From a virus: a stretch of 43,028 nucleotides of DNA. The translations under genes were made by a program, and so were the position numbers. The stretch spans positions 1 through 43,028 of the IMG/VR virus record IMGVR_UViG_3300014903_000007. One strand, given 5' to 3'. The notes below the pieces were generated by a model. The model was not told the DNA's origin and did no database searches. It saw only the letters and a list, made by a program, of their open reading frames with translations. This document shows, piece after piece, positions 9,248 through 40,375 of this stretch (the first letter of the stretch is position 1; every line of letters begins with the position of its first letter).

Positions 9248-10120
9248 CTAGCTATTAGCTGGGTTGCTACCGCTAAACCGATAGCGGAGCTCGCTTTCAA
9301 CAAGGGCCAAGTACCGTCGCAAGTCGCCAATGTCGTCCAACAGGCCATCCACTGCATTTGGACCTTCGTCGCCCAATATTGCGAATATGTTGTAGCCTTC
9401 GCGCTTGCCGATATTCTCAATGCGGTCCCACTTACGGGCCAGCATCATGAAGGCACCACAGCCACCACGCTTCTTCCAGGAGTCGCCGTAAGTGCCACCC
9501 TTCGCCAGTAGGACCTTTTCGTCGTTGTCCAGTACTTCGCGGAGGAATTGAAGGTTGTCGCATCCTGGGGGATAGACTGGTTCGACCGGAAGCACAGATT
9601 CAGACAGTCCTTTCGGAACATCCTCCGCCCCTGGTCCATCGCCCTTGATGAACGTACTGTTCCGGACGCCAAGAACATGGATTATTTCCTGCACGTTCTC
9701 CGTGAGAACATCAGTACCGTGTACCTGGAGGTCGTACTGCGCAGGCTTCGAGAACGACATGTCCTCGCCCTTGGCGTATAGACCCTTCGTGTCTCGCCTG
9801 CGGCACACACTGTCCGACGTATGCACGTAGACGAAGACTGCCTGGGGGCACAGCTCCTTGGCCCGTTGTCGTATCTCATGGGTCGGCAGGATGGTCGCGA
9901 TAATGACGTTGTGGGACTGGCGGTGCAGTAGGTTGGCAGTCTCAGCTATCCGCCGATTATTCTCCATCCTATCGTCGTCCGAAAACCCGAGGTCGCTGTT
10001 CAGACCTAGACGAGCTTCGTCTCCATCCAGCAGTACTCCTCCCAGATACTTTTCGAGTAGCTTGGCAGTTGTAGTCTTGCCCGCTCCACTTCTGCCGTAC
10101 AGCCATATGATATCAGACAT
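9248..10120 (-). CDS. APS-kinase-like domain fused to DUF1599-like domain
   Basis: 290 residues. Residues 1-150 match the adenylylsulfate (APS) kinase family closely: P-loop GRSGAGKTT at 9-17, LDGDEARLGLNSDLGFSDDD at 31-50 followed by RMENNRRIAE, and RDTKGLYAKGE at 109-119. All three are signatures of CysC, which phosphorylates APS to PAPS, the universal sulfuryl donor. After a linker, residues 190-280 (LLAKGGTYGDSWKKRGGCGA, DRIENIGKRE, DDIGDLRRYL) resemble DUF1599, a domain associated with phage nucleotide modification. The gene is last in a six-gene overlapping operon and starts eight bases inside the HD gene. It may make PAPS for the sulfotransferase-like neighbour. Alternatively the P-loop kinase may phosphorylate hydroxymethyl-dU in DNA. 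Confidence 0.8.
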   Translation of the reverse strand: MSDIIWLYGRSGAGKTTTAKLLEKYLGGVLLDGDEARLGLNSDLGFSDDDRMENNRRIAETANLLHRQSHNVIIATILPTHEIRQRAKELCPQAVFVYVHTSDSVCRRRDTKGLYAKGEDMSFSKPAQYDLQVHGTDVLTENVQEIIHVLGVRNSTFIKGDGPGAEDVPKGLSESVLPVEPVYPPGCDNLQFLREVLDNDEKVLLAKGGTYGDSWKKRGGCGAFMMLARKWDRIENIGKREGYNIFAILGDEGPNAVDGLLDDIGDLRRYLALVESELRYRFSGSNPANS

Positions 10121-10613
10121 GATTACTCTCCTTCAGTATATCGTTGAATATTGCTTCGACCTTATCATTCCACCAGTCACGATGCTCAGTCATCCACTGC
10201 GCACCACGGTCGAGGACTATGCGGTAGTTCGCGTTTCCCAGCTTCAGCTGAGACACGGTATGGAATAGCAGTTCCAGCATGTCTGCCAGCTTCAGGATTT
10301 TACGCTCTTCCGGACTGAGGTCGATATCGATTCCCATGTCCACTTCGACCTTCTGCTCAATCCGGTCGAGCAATTCCTTGAGCTCGGGGTTTCCCCACTT
10401 GGCGTGAGCCGGCACGTCGCCGGTGAACATTTCCGCGCAATCGTGAAAGAGCGCCTTCTCAATCAGCGCCGAGGGAACACTAGCCGTCGGCCAGATTTCC
10501 AGACAGATAATCGCCACTCCCCAGGAGTGGTCGGCCACGGTTTGATGTCGTGTGGATTCTACGGTGTGATACCTTAGTGTCTTGCCGCTTTCCATGACGT
10601 GCTTGATATTCAT
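10113..10613 (-). CDS. HD-domain nucleotide phosphohydrolase (YfbR-like)
   Basis: 166 residues from ATG 10613, which overlaps the stop of the thymidylate-synthase-like gene (TAATG) and has AGAGGAAG upstream. The metal-binding HD signature is complete by eye: RHQTVADHSW at 22-31, ALFHDCAEMFTGD at 54-66 with the HD pair at 57-58, and a later Asp in KLADMLELLF. YfbR-type enzymes dephosphorylate deoxynucleoside monophosphates. In phages that replace thymine such enzymes remove the competing normal nucleotide or adjust pools. Here it sits between the dUMP-modifying enzyme and the kinase fusion, so I infer a pool-shaping role in thymidine modification. Confidence 0.8.
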   Translation of the reverse strand: MNIKHVMESGKTLRYHTVESTRHQTVADHSWGVAIICLEIWPTASVPSALIEKALFHDCAEMFTGDVPAHAKWGNPELKELLDRIEQKVEVDMGIDIDLSPEERKILKLADMLELLFHTVSQLKLGNANYRIVLDRGAQWMTEHRDWWNDKVEAIFNDILKESNHV

Positions 10614-11638
10614 TACTTCTTCCTCTTGTTCAGCCAAGTAGTCGCGGCCGCTTTCCAGTCGTTGTCGATAGGCATCTTCATGACTTCCATACATGCTGCA
10701 TCGTAGTTGCCCGCCTTGTGGAAGAACCACGCGTTCTGCATAGGGATTGCGACCTGTGGGAAGAAGTCGTTGAAATAGGTGCGCTCTTCGTCACCCTCCA
10801 TGAAGGCTCGGAGATCCTCGTCGAAGTACTGCGGAATGTCAATAAGGTTGCGAGGGCGGAGCTTGTCCTTTTCATATCGATTCTCGTGTCCCAGTAACAA
10901 GTCCTCGAACTTCCTATCGAAGATTTCCTGGTACGCATGGAAGTCAGTAGAAATCTGCCAGTACTTGCCGATTTCAACTCCGATCATCTGCGCCACATAT
11001 TCCTGGAAGAAGCTGAAGTGAACGGCGTTCGCTCCGTAGCATCCCCAGATGGCGTCGTTGGACCGATTGAACACGATCATGTCGAGACGACCGTGCCGTA
11101 TCGAGAACTTGATCATGTCGTTACATGGAATATCTTTGCTGTCCGTAGCGAGATCATCTTCCGGACACCAGATGCTGCAGACCACCCGACGGTTCGATGG
11201 ATCTTTCTTCAGCATGTCGATGACGACTTCTAATTGATCCAGGGTAGCGTATTCGACCTCTTCAACTTCAACTCCTACATCGCCAATAATGACGCCGGTG
11301 GGGACCAGCCAGTTTCGCAGTCGATGTCCGTACGCTCCGTGGAAGGTCTCGCCGTCATCGGAGAATTCCTTCATGCGCTTATTATATTGGGCAAGCCATT
11401 CCACATCATTACGACCAGCCAGCATCCACAGGGACTCCATCAGGTGGAAGAATGGATTGGCATCGCGGAACCGATGAAACAAGACTCGTTCCTGAGGGTT
11501 CCGATAACAGGTGGTCACCGGCACTTGAATGGAGTATACGTCTCCAGCTCGTGAGCCGGCTGGTAAGCCGGACTCCTTCAACAGTTGCATACCAAATAGG
11601 TACGCATCGTTCACGTTTTCTGCGTATAGGGTAATCAT
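10613..11638 (-). CDS. Thymidylate synthase family protein, probable dUMP hydroxymethylase
   Basis: 341 residues with the thymidylate synthase core: ANPFFHLMESLWMLAGRND at 60-78, FHGAYGHRLR at 99-108, the dUMP phosphate-binding SNRRV at 148-152, catalytic Cys172 in DIPCND, and NRSNDAIWGCYGANAVHFSF at 191-210. Standard synthases read RSxDxxLGxPFNIAxY in the last motif. The GANxVHFS version seen here is, as I recall, typical of phage synthase homologues grouped with dUMP hydroxymethylases, which make 5-hydroxymethyl-dUMP for modified DNA. The ATG overlaps the glycosyltransferase stop (ATGA) and has GGAGACC upstream. Ordinary thymidylate synthesis cannot be excluded, but the neighbours favour hydroxymethylation. 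Confidence 0.85.
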   Translation of the reverse strand: MITLYAENVNDAYLFGMQLLKESGLPAGSRAGDVYSIQVPVTTCYRNPQERVLFHRFRDANPFFHLMESLWMLAGRNDVEWLAQYNKRMKEFSDDGETFHGAYGHRLRNWLVPTGVIIGDVGVEVEEVEYATLDQLEVVIDMLKKDPSNRRVVCSIWCPEDDLATDSKDIPCNDMIKFSIRHGRLDMIVFNRSNDAIWGCYGANAVHFSFFQEYVAQMIGVEIGKYWQISTDFHAYQEIFDRKFEDLLLGHENRYEKDKLRPRNLIDIPQYFDEDLRAFMEGDEERTYFNDFFPQVAIPMQNAWFFHKAGNYDAACMEVMKMPIDNDWKAAATTWLNKRKK

Positions 11639-12465
11639 TGGAAAAGGTCTCCTTCTTTCCGTAAGGTGAATCGCTTCTTCTTACCCTGTTCAAAGGCTTT
11701 CTTCCATGAGATGCGGACGTCCACACGACTCCCACCTCCCCAGGAAGATTTCGTCTTCTTTTCAACTACCTTCACAAATCCTGGATGCAGGTCGGCCAGC
11801 TTGTGCGCCTGCTCTTCCATCATTTCATGAGTCCTAAATCTGGAGCATCCACCTTCCGTGTTTGACCCTGCCTGATTGTGTGCGTATTTGTAGATAACGG
11901 CGTTCCGGTATCCAGCTTTCAACAGGGTTAGGGTCAGGTGGAAGTCTTCACGGATAATCACGTCTCGATAGTCGAAGCTCAATTTGCGGACGATATCTGC
12001 ATCGTAGAAGTTCGCTCGAATAGCCCGCGTATTGTAGACAATGTCCTCCTCCACTCGATTATTTCCTTCACGGGCGGAAACTGCACCGTGTGCAACTCCA
12101 GCATCCATCAGGGTGACTATGTCCTCGATCAATGTTTCGACGTCCACGAGCTCGGCGGTGACAAGCTTTGCCGATCCCACTTCTTCGCGGACGTAGAGGG
12201 CCAAGTCGTCGTCAAGTACGAGGTGTCGCCCTCCCCACCCTGTCAGGATCGACTGCCGGATATCACTGATTCTGTACTCGTCAGGAATAGCGATCACTTC
12301 AAATCCTTCGGGTATGTCTATTTCCGCCCACGCGAAGGCTTCACATACTGGAACGACCACTGTAACTTCGATGTCGCCACACGCAACCATCTCGTCCAGG
12401 AACCATCTCTCCAGAGTTGCCTGCCGCCCTAGCCTGCCTCGCGTGGGTACGAATACATGTATCAT
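11635..12465 (-). CDS. GT-A glycosyltransferase, TAGT-like, putative
   Basis: 276 residues. The chain opens with MIHVFVPTRGRLGRQATLER, like the start of TET/JBP-associated glycosyltransferases (TAGT). It carries HLVLDDDLAL at 81-90, the metal- and sugar-nucleotide-binding acidic motif of GT-A folds. Downstream come FDYRDVIIREDFHLTLTLLK with an acidic pair suitable for catalysis, and a basic C-terminal tail (FEQGKKKRFTLRKEGDLFQ) that could contact DNA. Overlaps of four bases on both sides tie it to the modification operon. The likely job is glycosylation of a hydroxymethylated base in DNA. Sugar and exact target cannot be read from sequence. Confidence 0.65.
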   Translation of the reverse strand: MIHVFVPTRGRLGRQATLERWFLDEMVACGDIEVTVVVPVCEAFAWAEIDIPEGFEVIAIPDEYRISDIRQSILTGWGGRHLVLDDDLALYVREEVGSAKLVTAELVDVETLIEDIVTLMDAGVAHGAVSAREGNNRVEEDIVYNTRAIRANFYDADIVRKLSFDYRDVIIREDFHLTLTLLKAGYRNAVIYKYAHNQAGSNTEGGCSRFRTHEMMEEQAHKLADLHPGFVKVVEKKTKSSWGGGSRVDVRISWKKAFEQGKKKRFTLRKEGDLFQ

Positions 12466-13193
12466 CTCAAACCTCCAAACTCTGCGTTCATCAGTAGATT
12501 CACTTCGTCTGAGAACTCCGGCGCGTTCACTTCCTTATGCCTGTCGAGTACTCTCATCTCGGACCCCTTCTTCTTGCGTTGAGAGAATGAGGAACCGTTT
12601 CCGTTCTTCGGAACAAAGTCTAGATCGAAGTTCGACACGTATGGCAGGCACAGCCTATTAGCCATCTTCTCTCGAGCGGAGGACGAACGCACCAGCCTGT
12701 CATACTTCAGTCTCTCCCAGGGACCGGACGCTGTAATGTGGTCCACCCAGAGCGGCTCTGTTCTACTGTTCTTCATGTTCCCAGCGTGAAAACTATTTAC
12801 CGAGCCGTCAGAATTGAATTGACGCATATGTCGCGAAGCCCACAAGTTATGGATGGAGCGATTGAACGTCAGAAATAGTGAAGGAAAGCCAGGGCCTACT
12901 TCCTTGTATCGCCCCCAAGCATCGGCAGTCGACAGGTCCTCAAAGGTGAACATGGAGTGAGCATCGCCGACACTCTTACTGTCCATTATTTCCTGGACAG
13001 CCTGGGCTCGCACTTTCCCAGTCAGCTGCTTCCCACCTTCGAACACTTCAGTCGCCGATTTTCGATCCCAGATACTCTTACCGCCCTTGGTGAGTCCATC
13101 GAAGTGGACAAACCTCTCGCGGTAGTGAGACATCAACCAATGTTGGAGGAAGTGGTTTCCACACCTTCTAAGCCCGACTCCTAGAATAATCAT
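12462..13193 (-). CDS. Sulfotransferase-like P-loop protein, putative
   Basis: 243 residues. The N-terminus MIILGVGLRRCGNHFLQHWL fits the 5'-phosphosulfate-binding loop of sulfotransferases ([KR][ST/C]G[TN]xxL in place of a Walker A). Residues 108-121 (LTFNRSIHNLWASR) fit the 3'-phosphate-binding motif, with Arg112 and Ser120 spaced eight residues apart, as in PAPS-dependent sulfotransferases (for example Arg130/Ser138 of human SULT1E1). The C-terminal third is basic. The gene overlaps both neighbours by four bases in the modification operon, and an APS-kinase-like domain lies three genes downstream. A PAPS-using enzyme acting on a modified base is my inference. It could also be a sulfotransferase-fold protein with another donor. 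Confidence 0.55.
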   Translation of the reverse strand: MIILGVGLRRCGNHFLQHWLMSHYRERFVHFDGLTKGGKSIWDRKSATEVFEGGKQLTGKVRAQAVQEIMDSKSVGDAHSMFTFEDLSTADAWGRYKEVGPGFPSLFLTFNRSIHNLWASRHMRQFNSDGSVNSFHAGNMKNSRTEPLWVDHITASGPWERLKYDRLVRSSSAREKMANRLCLPYVSNFDLDFVPKNGNGSSFSQRKKKGSEMRVLDRHKEVNAPEFSDEVNLLMNAEFGGLR

Positions 13194-14173
13194 TGCTGCC
13201 CCCTATACAGTGCCTTCGGTCGTCCATCGCCGTGAAGGGCGCGGAGGTATTTATCGGTCTCGCACAGGCTGTGCTCGATATCTCTCAGTTCGAGCTTCGG
13301 CACATGCTTCCCCGTCTTCTTCCCACTCTTCTCCAGGAGCTTACACATGAAGTTGAGACAATCGCTGTCCGTGACTTTTGCCTTCTTGTCTCCGAAGAAG
13401 ATGCGCCCTATTCCCCGCTTGGCTCCCGGTCCGGTATTGGCCCATCGCATGTGGTCTGATCCGTCGTAGTATCGGGTCCATCGTAAATCGGTGACAACTT
13501 CGTATGCGATGAATTTTCCGAATCCTTGATGTACTCGTAGACCATCCCACATTCCCTGCAGAGGTATAGGTCCTCCCCTCCTGGCAAGGGAAGGAGGTCG
13601 CTTAGCAAGGGATCTGAGAACGTCGTTGCAGGTGTAGTTGTGCTTAGGGCCGCTACGACCGCCCGCTGTGATAATGTAGCCAGCACCGTATATACGAAGA
13701 CCACTACGTTTCCTCGTGCTAAGGCAGTCCAGAAGCCTATCGCAGTACCGATCAAGATTCCCAGTAGGAAACCCAACGGCACCAAGAGTATCAGAAGTAT
13801 TAATTTGACGAGCGACACACATAGCAAACCAAAGATTCGGGTGATCATGATAGGGTTCCCTCCAATTCTCCCGCAGCCAGACAGTTTCTCGATCCAGTTC
13901 GCGGAAGACATTTGTGAATTTGTACTTGTCTAGGATTTGGTCTTTCGTCCACGGACGAGCTTGACCTTCTTCTTTCTTTTGATAGATGCGGTGTCTTTCG
14001 TTGATCCAGTACCAGAAGACGTCTTCTGCTTTCCAATTCTCAGTTGGGGTCCCTGATAGAAGGGATCGTTTCTTGGTAATTTTGAGAACAGCTTTGACTC
14101 CTTTATTATTCGGATCATCTGCTCTTGGAGAATGTATTGTGAGTTTCCCTCTACGTCCTGTGTTTTTGTACAT
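13190..14173 (-). CDS. DNA base hypermodification protein (aGPT-PPlase / HMUDK-helical superfamily)
   Basis: 327 residues. The core FWYWINERHRIY (about 53-64) then PWTKDQILDKYKFTNVFREL (74-93) is the hallmark of alpha-glutamyl/putrescinyl-thymine pyrophosphorylase-type proteins and the helical domain of 5-hmdU DNA kinases. Further family features are AGYIITAGGRSGPKH and GFGKFIAYEVVTDLRW. Members act on hydroxymethyl-dU or its phosphorylated form in DNA during thymidine hypermodification. ATG 14173 is the only usable start and has AAAGGA upstream, so the gene overlaps the primase-helicase gene by 244 bases in another frame. It opens the six-gene modification operon. Which reaction it performs (pyrophosphorylase or helper of a kinase) is unclear. 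Confidence 0.75.
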   Translation of the reverse strand: MYKNTGRRGKLTIHSPRADDPNNKGVKAVLKITKKRSLLSGTPTENWKAEDVFWYWINERHRIYQKKEEGQARPWTKDQILDKYKFTNVFRELDRETVWLRENWREPYHDHPNLWFAMCVARQINTSDTLGAVGFPTGNLDRYCDRLLDCLSTRKRSGLRIYGAGYIITAGGRSGPKHNYTCNDVLRSLAKRPPSLARRGGPIPLQGMWDGLRVHQGFGKFIAYEVVTDLRWTRYYDGSDHMRWANTGPGAKRGIGRIFFGDKKAKVTDSDCLNFMCKLLEKSGKKTGKHVPKLELRDIEHSLCETDKYLRALHGDGRPKALYRGQQ

Positions 14174-37138: not shown

Positions 37139-37843
37139 ATGTCCTTGCGGGAGCCGAAAGTCGTTACAGCGATGAAACGAGTGCGCGTCACAGTGCCACC
37201 AGCCATATATCCTGTGACTGTTGCGGAAGTGACTGAGCATCTACGTCTCCCAACCCCCTTATCCACCGAGGAGCAGGCGGATATCGAATCCATGATTGCT
37301 GCGGCAACTGACGAGGTCGAAACTTATCTACGAAAAGCGCTAATTACGCGGACCCTCGTACAGACTATGGATTCCTTCTTCTCCTCGGGGGGTATTCCCA
37401 TCTTTGAAGGCGCGATGGAAATATCGCAGTCCGCATTCACGCAAGGCGCCATCAAGCTGCGCCAACCTCCCCTCCAGGAAGTGGTTGAGGTCCGTGTTTA
37501 CGACATCGATAATAACGCCAGCGTCTACTCTGCTTCAAACTATTACGCCGACGTTTCCACCCCGAATGACTATGGTCGCATTGTCCTGAACTATCAAGCG
37601 AATGCACCGACCAATCTCCGGCAGACGAACGCTGTTGAGTACGAATTCAAGGCTGGATATGGTGCTTCTGCTGAGGCCATCCCGCCGATCATTATTCGCG
37701 GCATCCTTCAGCTCATCGGATATCTGTACGAAAACCGTGGAGACTGCACTGGCAATACCACCGACGATGTGGACGGTCCACTGAACGCAAGTGGCGCTAT
37801 GGGCCTCCTTCGCCGTCAACGTATCGAGAGGTTGATAAACTAA
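37139..37843 (+). CDS. Head-tail connector / adaptor (gp6-like)
   Basis: 234 residues. The gp6/gp15-type adaptor pattern is visible: YPVTVAEVTEHLRLPTPL, ADIESMIAAATDEVETYLRK, then RTLVQTMDSF, IKLRQPPLQEVVEVRVYDID, and a C-terminal helix (PPIIIRGILQLIGYLYENRG). These proteins sit under the portal as the first ring of the connector. Stop overlaps the next ATG (TAATG). Confidence 0.8.
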   Translation: MSLREPKVVTAMKRVRVTVPPAIYPVTVAEVTEHLRLPTPLSTEEQADIESMIAAATDEVETYLRKALITRTLVQTMDSFFSSGGIPIFEGAMEISQSAFTQGAIKLRQPPLQEVVEVRVYDIDNNASVYSASNYYADVSTPNDYGRIVLNYQANAPTNLRQTNAVEYEFKAGYGASAEAIPPIIIRGILQLIGYLYENRGDCTGNTTDDVDGPLNASGAMGLLRRQRIERLIN

Positions 37844-38748
37844 TGGAATTCAACGGCACAGACTTTCTGGTGAAGGCAGAGATCAACGGCGAAACTAAGG
37901 TCGTTGGATGTGCTCGTTCGGATTCTATCACGATCAACAACGAAGCGATCGACAGCACATGCAAAGAGGTGGGAGCCCCATCACTGGCTGACTACGGCTA
38001 CATTCAGAGTCCTCACACAGCGTGGTGGTACAAAGGAAGTACCGACACGACGTTCTACAATGCCTTCAAGTCCACTGTTGCGGCTATGGGCGCACAGATC
38101 GCATACATACCGAGTCAGGTGGAGAGCGACTGGGTGGTCGACAACATAGCAATCAGCCCGGTCCGCAATACCGCGTGGATTAGCTATGTTGACCCATCAC
38201 TGACTGGGAACTTCACCTGGGATTACGGCGAACCAAAAGGTTTTGAGGTATGGGGGCCAAACGAGCCATCAGCCGACGCCAATGTGGGGCTCCAGTTTAG
38301 GCCAGCCCAGAATCCAAATGCCTACACATGGAACGCTGTCTCGGACGAGGCTTCATTACGCACCGCCATCATTCAGATCAAAGACCCTTCTACCCTTACA
38401 GAAGCGCAGTGGGCAGCTATCATAGTGGAATCAGGACTGCCCGAAGTTGGGGCAGTAGAGCCATTCCGCAACATCATCTCCGGAGGAATTCGATCTTCTA
38501 CCGTAAATACTGCCGGTGTCGTTGGCTCAGGATACGATACTCATGTATTCTCCGACGTGATGGACCTCTACTGGAATGGGAAGACGGTCCTGGTCACAGT
38601 GGAGAGTGGCGCAGGCGACAGCTTCTCGGGTCTGTATTTCTGCACCAGTTGCGAACGCTCTGGCGAGCATACAGATGCCGAGCAGTATAGTTGCACATTC
38701 GAAAGTGCTGGTGAAATAACCTATTCCGAATCGGGTGGAGGTAGCTGA
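37843..38748 (+). CDS. Tail-tube paralogue with inserted C-type-lectin-like domain
   Basis: 301 residues. Residues 1-47 (CARSDSITINNEAIDSTCK) and 212-301 (SGGIRSS, then ERSGEHTDAEQYSCTFESAG) align with the two halves of the major tail protein at 39959-40375, sharing the 13-residue string ERSGEHTDAEQYS. Between them, at the point before GGIRS in the tube protein, about 164 residues are inserted. Residues ~57-168 of the insert match a C-type-lectin-like fold: AFKSTVAAMGAQIAYIPSQV, AWISYVDPSLTGNFTWDYGE and VWGPNEPSADANVG (WIGL, W-x-DG and EPN-like regions). It is encoded among the connectors, not beside the tube gene. Probably a minor tube or neck protein displaying a lectin-like domain. Confidence 0.75.
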   Translation: MEFNGTDFLVKAEINGETKVVGCARSDSITINNEAIDSTCKEVGAPSLADYGYIQSPHTAWWYKGSTDTTFYNAFKSTVAAMGAQIAYIPSQVESDWVVDNIAISPVRNTAWISYVDPSLTGNFTWDYGEPKGFEVWGPNEPSADANVGLQFRPAQNPNAYTWNAVSDEASLRTAIIQIKDPSTLTEAQWAAIIVESGLPEVGAVEPFRNIISGGIRSSTVNTAGVVGSGYDTHVFSDVMDLYWNGKTVLVTVESGAGDSFSGLYFCTSCERSGEHTDAEQYSCTFESAGEITYSESGGGS

Positions 38749-39098
38749 TGGCCAACTGTACACGACCGCCAGTCTGTTCCGGGCAACTGCGGCAGAACAT
38801 CGCGATTTACGAAGAAGATCTCAGCTCTGACGAATTCGGTGGAGACGAGGTCACATGGGTCGCCTTCAAGGACAACGTCAAGAGTAAGGCGCACCAAATG
38901 TCGGCAGGCGAACGGTTCGCCCATCAGCGCATCCAGTCCGAGGCCACCGACAAGTTCACCTTCCGCTACTTCCCAGGATTGAAGGAGTCCATGAAGATCG
39001 TCTTCAACGGTGTCGACTACAACATCACTGGAATCGACAACTGGGAATATCGCGATCAATGGCTCATCGTTCACGCTAAGCGGGGAGTCGTACAATGA
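38748..39098 (+). CDS. Head-tail joining / head closure protein
   Basis: 116 residues. It fits the phage head-tail adaptor family (SPP1 gp16/HK97-type stopper): a short N-terminus SGQLRQNIAIYEEDLSSDEF, GDEVTWVAFKDNVKSKAHQM, and the closing strands DYNITGIDNWEYRDQWLIVH. It closes the connector after packaging. Overlaps the next gene by four bases. Confidence 0.75.
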   Translation: MANCTRPPVCSGQLRQNIAIYEEDLSSDEFGGDEVTWVAFKDNVKSKAHQMSAGERFAHQRIQSEATDKFTFRYFPGLKESMKIVFNGVDYNITGIDNWEYRDQWLIVHAKRGVVQ

Positions 39099-39556
39099 CC
39101 GCCATGACCGCAACGATAAGTGGAGATAAACGACTTCGCCGGAAATTGGCCAAGTTGCCGAAGGCGTATCGTCATGCTCTGAAGCAGGCAGCCAACAGGA
39201 CCGCCATGAATATCCGTGACGACGCGAAGGAATCCATCAAGGACTTCTCCGGCTCTTATCGCGAATACATCATCGGCAACGGGAAGTCCCACTTCTCCTC
39301 TCCACCAGGAATGCCGCCGAACGAAATCACCGGCTTCTTGCGCAGGTCGATAAAGGTCACCGAGCGCGCGACGATAAGTAATATCACTATTGGAGTTTCT
39401 GTCAACGCATACTACGGACTCTTCTTAGAGCTCGGCACTAGACAGATGGACGCACGTCCGTTCCTGGGGCCAGCGTATCGCAGACACTCACCAGGGTTCA
39501 CGAAGGTCGCTAAGGCGCTCGTTCAAGCCGCAGGGAAGGAGGTAGCTGGATCATGA
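39095..39556 (+). CDS. Tail completion protein, HK97 gp10 family
   Basis: 153 residues. Pattern of the gp10-type family: KRLRRKLAKLPKAYRHALKQ, then AANRTAMNIRDDAKESI, NAYYGLFLELGTRQMDARPF, and a closing helix (SPGFTKVAKALVQAAGKEV). LELGT followed by ARPFLGPAY is the family hallmark. It completes the tail end that docks on the head. Neighbours on both sides are tail completion genes. Confidence 0.85.
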   Translation: MTAMTATISGDKRLRRKLAKLPKAYRHALKQAANRTAMNIRDDAKESIKDFSGSYREYIIGNGKSHFSSPPGMPPNEITGFLRRSIKVTERATISNITIGVSVNAYYGLFLELGTRQMDARPFLGPAYRRHSPGFTKVAKALVQAAGKEVAGS

Positions 39557-39948
39557 TAAAGCAATCTGAAATACTGAAGGCAGTTTTCGAACGCGCCAAG
39601 ACGTCTCCAGCAATAACTCTCGTTCCGCCGGAAAGCATCAAGAGTCACATTCCTCAGGATGCTCCACTTCCATATGTCCGTATCCGTATGGACCAAGCTC
39701 CAAACGACGACAAGACACAGTTCGGGTACGAGACGAATATTACGTTCGACGTATGGTCTAAAAAGCATTCGGACGGGGAGGTCTCGCAAATTGTTGATGA
39801 ACTAATTGAAGCATTTTCAACACCGCTGACTGTAGTCGGTGGTAATAATTTCTACATCCGTCGTGGCAATACCGTCTATCCGGTGGAGCCTGACGGTCAA
39901 ACACATCGTGCATCTCTAGCCTGTAGGCTACTTTCTCACACGGCATAA
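39553..39948 (+). CDS. Tail completion / terminator protein (DUF3168-like)
   Basis: 131 residues. KQSEILKAVFERAKTSPAIT, SHIPQDAPLPYVRIRMDQAP, GYETNITFDVWSKKHSDGEV and ASLACRLLSHTA follow the DUF3168/gpU-type tail terminator pattern. The ring caps the tail tube and stops its growth. ATGA overlap with the gp10-like gene. The tube gene follows. Confidence 0.8.
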   Translation: MIKQSEILKAVFERAKTSPAITLVPPESIKSHIPQDAPLPYVRIRMDQAPNDDKTQFGYETNITFDVWSKKHSDGEVSQIVDELIEAFSTPLTVVGGNNFYIRRGNTVYPVEPDGQTHRASLACRLLSHTA

Positions 39949-39958
39949 GGAGGCAATA

Positions 39959-40375
39959 ATGCCAACTAATTACCAAGGCGCTTTATTTCTCATCGAAATA
40001 GAAGACCCTGAAACCCCGGCGGCATATATACCTGTCGCATGTATGCGCAGCACTACCGTCACTCTGAATAACGAAATGATCGACGTCACGAGTAAGTGCA
40101 ATGATCCATGGCGTCATCTCATGGCAGGCGGCATCCGCTCCCTCACCCTGGCTGGTAGCGGTGTCTTCAACGATGACGCTTCCATGGCAGAACTCATCGC
40201 GGCGAATGTCGAAGGTCGTCATGTGCTTATGAAAGCGACTTCCGACTACGGCGACGAGTTCTCAGGTTCGTTCGCACCCACTACCGTCGAACGTTCTGGC
40301 GAACACACCGACGCCGAACAGTATTCCTTTACCTTTGAGAGTGCTGGCGTAGTCACCTACGCTGCCGCTCCATAA
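39959..40375 (+). CDS. Major tail protein (tail tube)
   Basis: 138 residues with AAGGAGGCAATA before the ATG. The tube-protein pattern is clear: CMRSTTVTLNNEMIDVTSKC, GGIRSLTLAGSGVFNDDASM, GRHVLMKATSDYGDEFSGSF and EQYSFTFESAGVVTYAAA. It polymerises around the tape measure protein. Its two halves recur in the 301-residue protein at 37843-38748, showing gene duplication. Confidence 0.9.
   Translation: MPTNYQGALFLIEIEDPETPAAYIPVACMRSTTVTLNNEMIDVTSKCNDPWRHLMAGGIRSLTLAGSGVFNDDASMAELIAANVEGRHVLMKATSDYGDEFSGSFAPTTVERSGEHTDAEQYSFTFESAGVVTYAAAP

Follow-up and report, generated by a model that had tools for sequence, protein, structure and literature searches.

A diverged tail-tube paralogue with a probable C-type-lectin-like domain in its inter-ring loop, encoded among the neck genes of a virus

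Why would a phage encode a second version of its tail-tube protein among the genes that connect head to tail, and what might the large insertion in that copy do? We examined the question in a window consisting of the whole 43,028-base stretch analysed, from a virus record with a siphovirus- or RcGTA-like structural gene cluster (Table 1). The sequence-only reading of this DNA had placed the paralogue among connectors, and the neighboring genes agreed, with the head-tail adaptor upstream and Hc1, Neck1 and the tail terminator downstream. The frame that runs past the window end had no Pfam match, and its label as a putative tape measure therefore rests on position. Elsewhere in the window, a minus-strand cluster (9248-14173) resembled those for thymidine hypermodification, and from these genes the phage DNA may be hypermodified.

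Table 1 Coordinates of the features discussed (window positions except in the last row).
Feature	Position	Strand	Basis or detail
Window	43,028 bases		virus record; siphovirus- or RcGTA-like structural cluster
APS-kinase-like	9248-10120	-	
YfbR-like HD phosphatase	10113-10730	-	
Thymidylate-synthase-like	10613-11638	-	
TET-associated glycosyltransferase	11635-12465	-	
5-hmdU DNA kinase	13190-14173	-	
Terminase	starts 30647		
Portal	starts 32040		
Capsid (MCP)	starts 34913		ribosome site AAGGAG
Head-tail adaptor	37139..37843	+	phrog_442 2.6e-19; stop overlaps paralogue start (TAATG)
Tail-tube paralogue with predicted CTLD insertion, 301 aa	37843..38748	+	ORF; Phage_tail_2 8.8e-10; paralogy
N-terminal tube part, residues 1-44, through NNEAIDSTCK	37843..37974	+	TTP profile positions 4-48, i-E 3.9e-13
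Inserted segment, residues 45-205, in putative inter-ring long loop	37975..38457	+	alignment
Predicted CTLD core, residues 63-178: helix FYNAFKSTVAAMG, AWISYVD, GNFTWDYGE, WGPNEPS, YTWNAV, AIIQI	38029..38376	+	viral CTLD profile, alignment, predicted fold
EPS, counterpart of EPN calcium/sugar motif, residues 141-143	38263..38271	+	CTLD alignment
WNA, counterpart of WND calcium motif, residues 163-165, aspartate lost	38329..38337	+	CTLD alignment
C-terminal tube part, residues 206-301, from EPFRNIISGGIRS	38458..38748	+	TTP profile positions 47-136, i-E 2.7e-31
Head closure protein Hc1	38748..39098	+	Phage_HCP 1.8e-17
Tail completion/Neck1 (HK97 gp10-like)	39095..39556	+	phrog_5 1e-23
Tail terminator	39553..39948	+	Tail_completion_gp17 2e-10; phrog_176
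Major tail (tube) protein MTP, 138 aa, sister paralogue	39959..40375	+	Phage_tail_2 3.3e-18; phrog_1407; strong AAGGAGG ribosome site
Chaperone-like gene	starts 40406		
Open ORF, putative tape measure	from 41046, past window end		position
L004 433-aa tube paralogue	L004:5609-6910		adjoins plain MTP

The paralogue ORF occupied exactly 37843-38748, from ATG to TGA, and encoded 301 amino acids. It matched Pfam Phage_tail_2 at 8.8e-10 (39.2 bits against a curated cut-off of 23.8) and the major tail protein family phrog_1407 in PHROG at 1.9e-12, and a profile search matched both halves of its tube domain to the TTP profile. Two blocks were shared with the major tail protein (MTP): residues 206-295 with MTP 49-135 (47% identity, E 7e-23) and residues 3-41 (42% identity, E 2e-6). 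The first 47 and last ~90 residues had been read as matching the two halves of MTP; both blocks were recovered, at these measured limits. ERSGEHTDAEQYS was identical in the two proteins, and the ends of the genes had 75% of 72 bases in common at the DNA level. A tree of 19 tube domains placed the paralogue sister to MTP with support of 98/98 on a long branch (1.5 vs 0.31), although, as the tree program warned, a branch of this length is placed with less certainty. Sister position and branch length together indicate that the duplication probably occurred in this lineage and was followed by fast change of the copy. The family match, the shared blocks and the tree thus uphold the original description of a duplicated tail-tube protein, and by sequence the paralogue derives from a duplication of this phage's MTP gene, followed by divergence.

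All nine positions invariant among eight aligned tube proteins were kept in the paralogue (9/9), which makes it probable that the copy still uses the tube fold. A full-length model predicted the tube beta-sandwich, much of the flanks having high pLDDT, and the closest solved fold for the tube part was the RcGTA tube (Z 10.8). As judged by profile matches and predicted fold, the tube part is a Phage_tail_2 domain of the TP901-1 type. Three cysteines in it, C267, C270 and C284 (window 38641-38694), were absent from the matching MTP segment; cross-links involving them are possible.

Tube alignments and the TTP profile placed the insert at residues ~45-205 (about 161 amino acids), between NNEAIDSTCKEV and EPFRNIISGGIRS. 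EPFRNI, starting at residue 206, aligned with DPWRHL of MTP and WRELL of the RcGTA tube and so belongs to the tube part, which means that the insert does not lie directly before GGIRS. The insertion itself was therefore confirmed, but the earlier boundaries (~164 residues, 48-211, exactly before GGIRS) move to ~45-205, ending before EPFRNI. No counterpart of the insert occurred in any other tube protein examined in the alignment or at the tube loci. On the RcGTA tube protein (PDB 6tba; profile E 7e-25), the insertion falls at residues ~46-49, just before W50. The long loop of this protein makes inter-disc contacts (PMC7296036), as does that of the R4C tube (PMC10276861). By alignment and from the RcGTA and R4C papers, the insertion would sit in the long loop with which the tube fold contacts the next ring. 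A recent foreign origin of the insert was also considered, and its unremarkable GC content and codon usage, neither of which stood out in composition, argue against it.

The core of the insert had been called C-type-lectin-like, and several searches agreed. Pfam Lectin_C matched the insert at 0.0019 (19.3 bits, below the 22.6 cut-off), and phmmer against PDB lectins found the SP-D lectin domain at 9e-5 and mosGCTL-20 at 1.1e-4. A profile built from six phage C-type-lectin-like domains (CTLDs) matched residues 63-174 at 3.6e-6, the paralogue being its only significant match among the ORFs searched. The real insert scored 26.5 bits against a best of 18.3 among 5000 shuffles. Searched alone against a small preselected set of bacterial CTLD ORFs, it gave a best match of 5.6e-10, and it kept six invariant CTLD columns in a 26-row alignment. 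Structure prediction, which the sequence-only reading had put forward as the check, gave a divided answer. In a full-length model built without CTLD-rich rows, the insert had pLDDT <50 and no confident fold. Aligning tube and CTLD rows together at full length gave misalignment, so we folded the insert alone. AlphaFold2 then predicted a CTLD fold with pLDDT 70.3 and pTM 0.64, a result that depends on a CTLD-rich alignment (26 rows picked by CTLD-like motifs) and is carried by two of the five models, the other three falling below 50. Foldseek with this model gave a probability of 1.00 and 264 PDB chains at E <= 0.001, and the 50 of them that were listed were essentially all C-type lectin domains. 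From the sequence matches and the model, the insert core likely has a C-type-lectin fold.

Ligand binding is a separate matter. In place of the EPN/QPD and WND calcium ligands, the insert has EPS and WNA. The final D of WND was kept in 24/25 bacterial or phage relatives in the alignment, the remaining one having WNN, and in the paralogue the position is alanine. The insert contained no cysteine. Because the calcium motifs are degenerate, calcium-dependent sugar binding by the insert appears unlikely, and the earlier suggestion that it binds glycans is weakened for the usual C-type-lectin mode, with WND aspartate changed to alanine and EPN to EPS. No reverse transcriptase or template repeat of a diversity-generating retroelement (DGR) was found within the window, the record being incomplete.

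The adaptor, paralogue, Hc1, Neck1 and terminator genes overlapped end to end (TAATG, TGATG or 4-base overlaps). Between the terminator and MTP lay 10 bases, and MTP had a strong TAAGGAGG ribosome site; the paralogue had only a weak AGAGG, far upstream. The overlapping neck-gene run and the weak site would be consistent with low, connector-like expression, and this arrangement suggests that the paralogue is made at low copy. Gene order is a weak guide to virion position, but taken with the translational signals and related phages it makes a special-ring or neck location plausible.

Two related phages also had extra tube genes. L004 (IMGVR_UViG_3300005843_000055) contained a plain tube gene and, directly before it, a gene for a tube protein of 433 aa that carries CHB_HEX and LamG-like domains. 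L051 contained three tube genes, two of them after the terminator and the third adjoining Neck1 and a LamG-like protein of 491 aa. The LamG matches in both were below the Pfam cut-off. Every other tube locus recovered had one tube gene, many of these loci being fragments. L004 and L051 indicate that extra tube copies tied to lectin-like folds recur, in different forms. Within L051:4196-8842, the tube gene between the LamG-like protein and Neck1 lay near a 342-aa gene without a Pfam match. A tail terminator with a ~200-residue C-terminal extension was seen at L010:4915-5943 (MW202897.1).

We searched widely for the same architecture. The full paralogue had no close relatives in viral contigs or in genome contigs; against phage records its tube half matched and nothing more, and a weak plasmid match spanned the CTLD. 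Among 395 genomes of one phylum we found one plain tube and no instance of the same architecture, and among 398 genomes of another phylum no relative of the full paralogue. The insert alone had no significant match in phage records, a consensus CTLD query had no match, and no CTLD was detected in 47 related virus records by a weak search whose control gave no signal either. The degenerate pattern W..G...W..GEPN retrieved many phage CTLD proteins, and the near-variant WxPNEP retrieved many bacterial CTLDs and one chance match in viral contigs; none had a tube domain. An alignment of eight tube sequences was too variable for use in scanning. Across these searches, no second phage with a tube paralogue bearing a CTLD in its loop was found. 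A ~330-aa phage CTLD protein (GHSYYRSTG...GEPNN; L087:3246-4241), with over 100 similar loci (L088-L205), had intact EPN and WND motifs and no PHROG match.

Starting from what was computed here (the paralogy, the site of insertion, and a CTLD supported by sequence and by the predicted fold), we think it somewhat probable that the paralogue forms an accessory low-copy ring of the virion, displaying an adhesin-like CTLD, probably at the neck. Under this proposal the phage's own tail-tube gene would have been duplicated, and a CTLD would have entered the long loop that connects strands two and three of the tube fold and through which one hexamer ring would dock onto the next. The tube part would still build a hexameric ring, as suggested by the invariant tube positions and by both loop halves being kept. 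Made in low amounts alongside the connectors, the protein would enter the virion as a single accessory ring or a few of them, the likeliest place being the neck, the head-proximal end of the tail. Six CTLDs per ring, displayed on the outer surface, might then serve as an accessory module for adhesion or display, with ligands on the host surface or in the environment, and any binding would presumably be calcium-independent. Against an accessory ring, the inter-ring loop is an odd site for a domain, which could block stacking.

That loop mediates ring stacking in relatives, and the CTLD might accordingly be a structural or assembly element with no outside ligand, bracing the neck or a capsid vertex or blocking further stacking. 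CTLDs can be structural, and an insert with degenerate calcium-site motifs and no cysteines would fit. We nevertheless consider this unlikely, because unrelated LamG-type lectin folds occur on or beside the extra tube proteins of related phages, which suggests selection for a binding class and not for one structural contact. Co-polymerization with MTP, which would leave the paralogue dispersed over the full length of the tube as a decorated minority component, draws on its sister relationship to MTP, its conserved tube positions and the precedent of TpeX forms, minority MTP copies with a carbohydrate-binding module (CBM) (PMC6669499). We give it only a small chance, however, since the paralogue is a separate gene in the connector run that does not adjoin MTP, and its inserted domain occupies the inter-ring loop, unlike the described tube decorations, which extend the C terminus. 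The paralogue might instead be a distal ring, similar to Dit with an inserted carbohydrate-binding domain: Dit of RcGTA and R4C is a tube-fold protein with a protruding insertion domain, and in RcGTA the distal side is where the long loop points, so an altered loop would fit a terminal distal ring. This is improbable given that the tree groups the paralogue with MTP, that its gene precedes Hc1, far from where Dit usually lies downstream of the tape measure gene (the putative tape measure runs past the window end), and that no Dit family appeared among the Pfam or PHROG matches of a protein that does not classify as Dit.

The accessory neck ring may also be one case of a wider habit. Tail tubes are usually viewed as one repeated subunit. 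Our tentative suggestion, which we hold as possible though below even likelihood, is that this phage group repeatedly duplicates the tube gene to make a dedicated ring whose lectin folds can be exchanged (a CTLD in this phage, LamG in its relatives). In this phage the displayed domain would lie within the loop used for ring stacking, and the tube would be heterotypic, with an adhesive ring near the neck. If true, phages can build specialized rings by duplicating a gene and can accommodate a whole domain where two rings meet, and virion-borne adhesion modules extend to CTLDs on the tail tube or neck.

Decorated tubes and necks, including those with CBMs, are already known, and a CTLD on a duplicated tube protein is apparently unreported: in a literature search that covered few subscription papers, no description of a CTLD on a tail tube or duplicated tube protein was found. 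The original remark that tube add-ons are known was thus borne out (PMC6669499), and for its claim that a lectin-like domain in a tube paralogue is new we found no CTLD precedent. The RcGTA tail tube protein Rcc01691 (PDB 6tba; TP901-1/Phage_tail_2 family) has its fold and family in common with the paralogue (E 7e-25, Z 10.8), but in it and in the Phage_tail_2 family the long loop is uninterrupted, whereas the paralogue's holds ~161 residues. The 936 lactococcal phages carry CBMs on MTP, neck and Dit, and their MTP and neck modules bind host cells when fused to GFP (PMC6669499). Their TpeX with a BppA-type CBM is likewise a decorated version of a tube protein, a minority form shown to bind host cells, but it is a C-terminal extension produced by a programmed frameshift (PMC6669499), and its carbohydrate-binding fold is a different one; here a separate paralogous gene has an internal CTLD. 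Evolved Dit and the RcGTA and R4C Dit with an insertion domain are, like the paralogue, tube-fold ring proteins with an internal domain, which in Dit faces outward; Dit is at the tail tip with an OB-like or BppA domain, whereas the paralogue derives from MTP and is encoded among neck genes. The neck passage structure of lactococcal phages likewise puts an accessory domain at the neck, without a tube paralogue or CTLD, and the R4C adaptor carries an Ig-like domain, an accessory neck domain that is neither from a tube paralogue nor a CTLD (PMC10276861). L004 resembles our phage in that a plain MTP is accompanied by a second tube gene with a lectin-like domain, but its extra domains are C-terminal, unlike the internal CTLD here, and its gene adjoins MTP after the terminator. 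Phage C-type-lectin folds are familiar from BPP-1 Mtd, a tail-fibre receptor-binding protein diversified by a retroelement, and from other DGR C-type-lectin variable proteins. These have the fold predicted here together with DGR machinery, of which neither reverse transcriptase nor template repeat was found in this window. Set beside these systems, the finding is a variation on known virion decorations and not a new kind of system.
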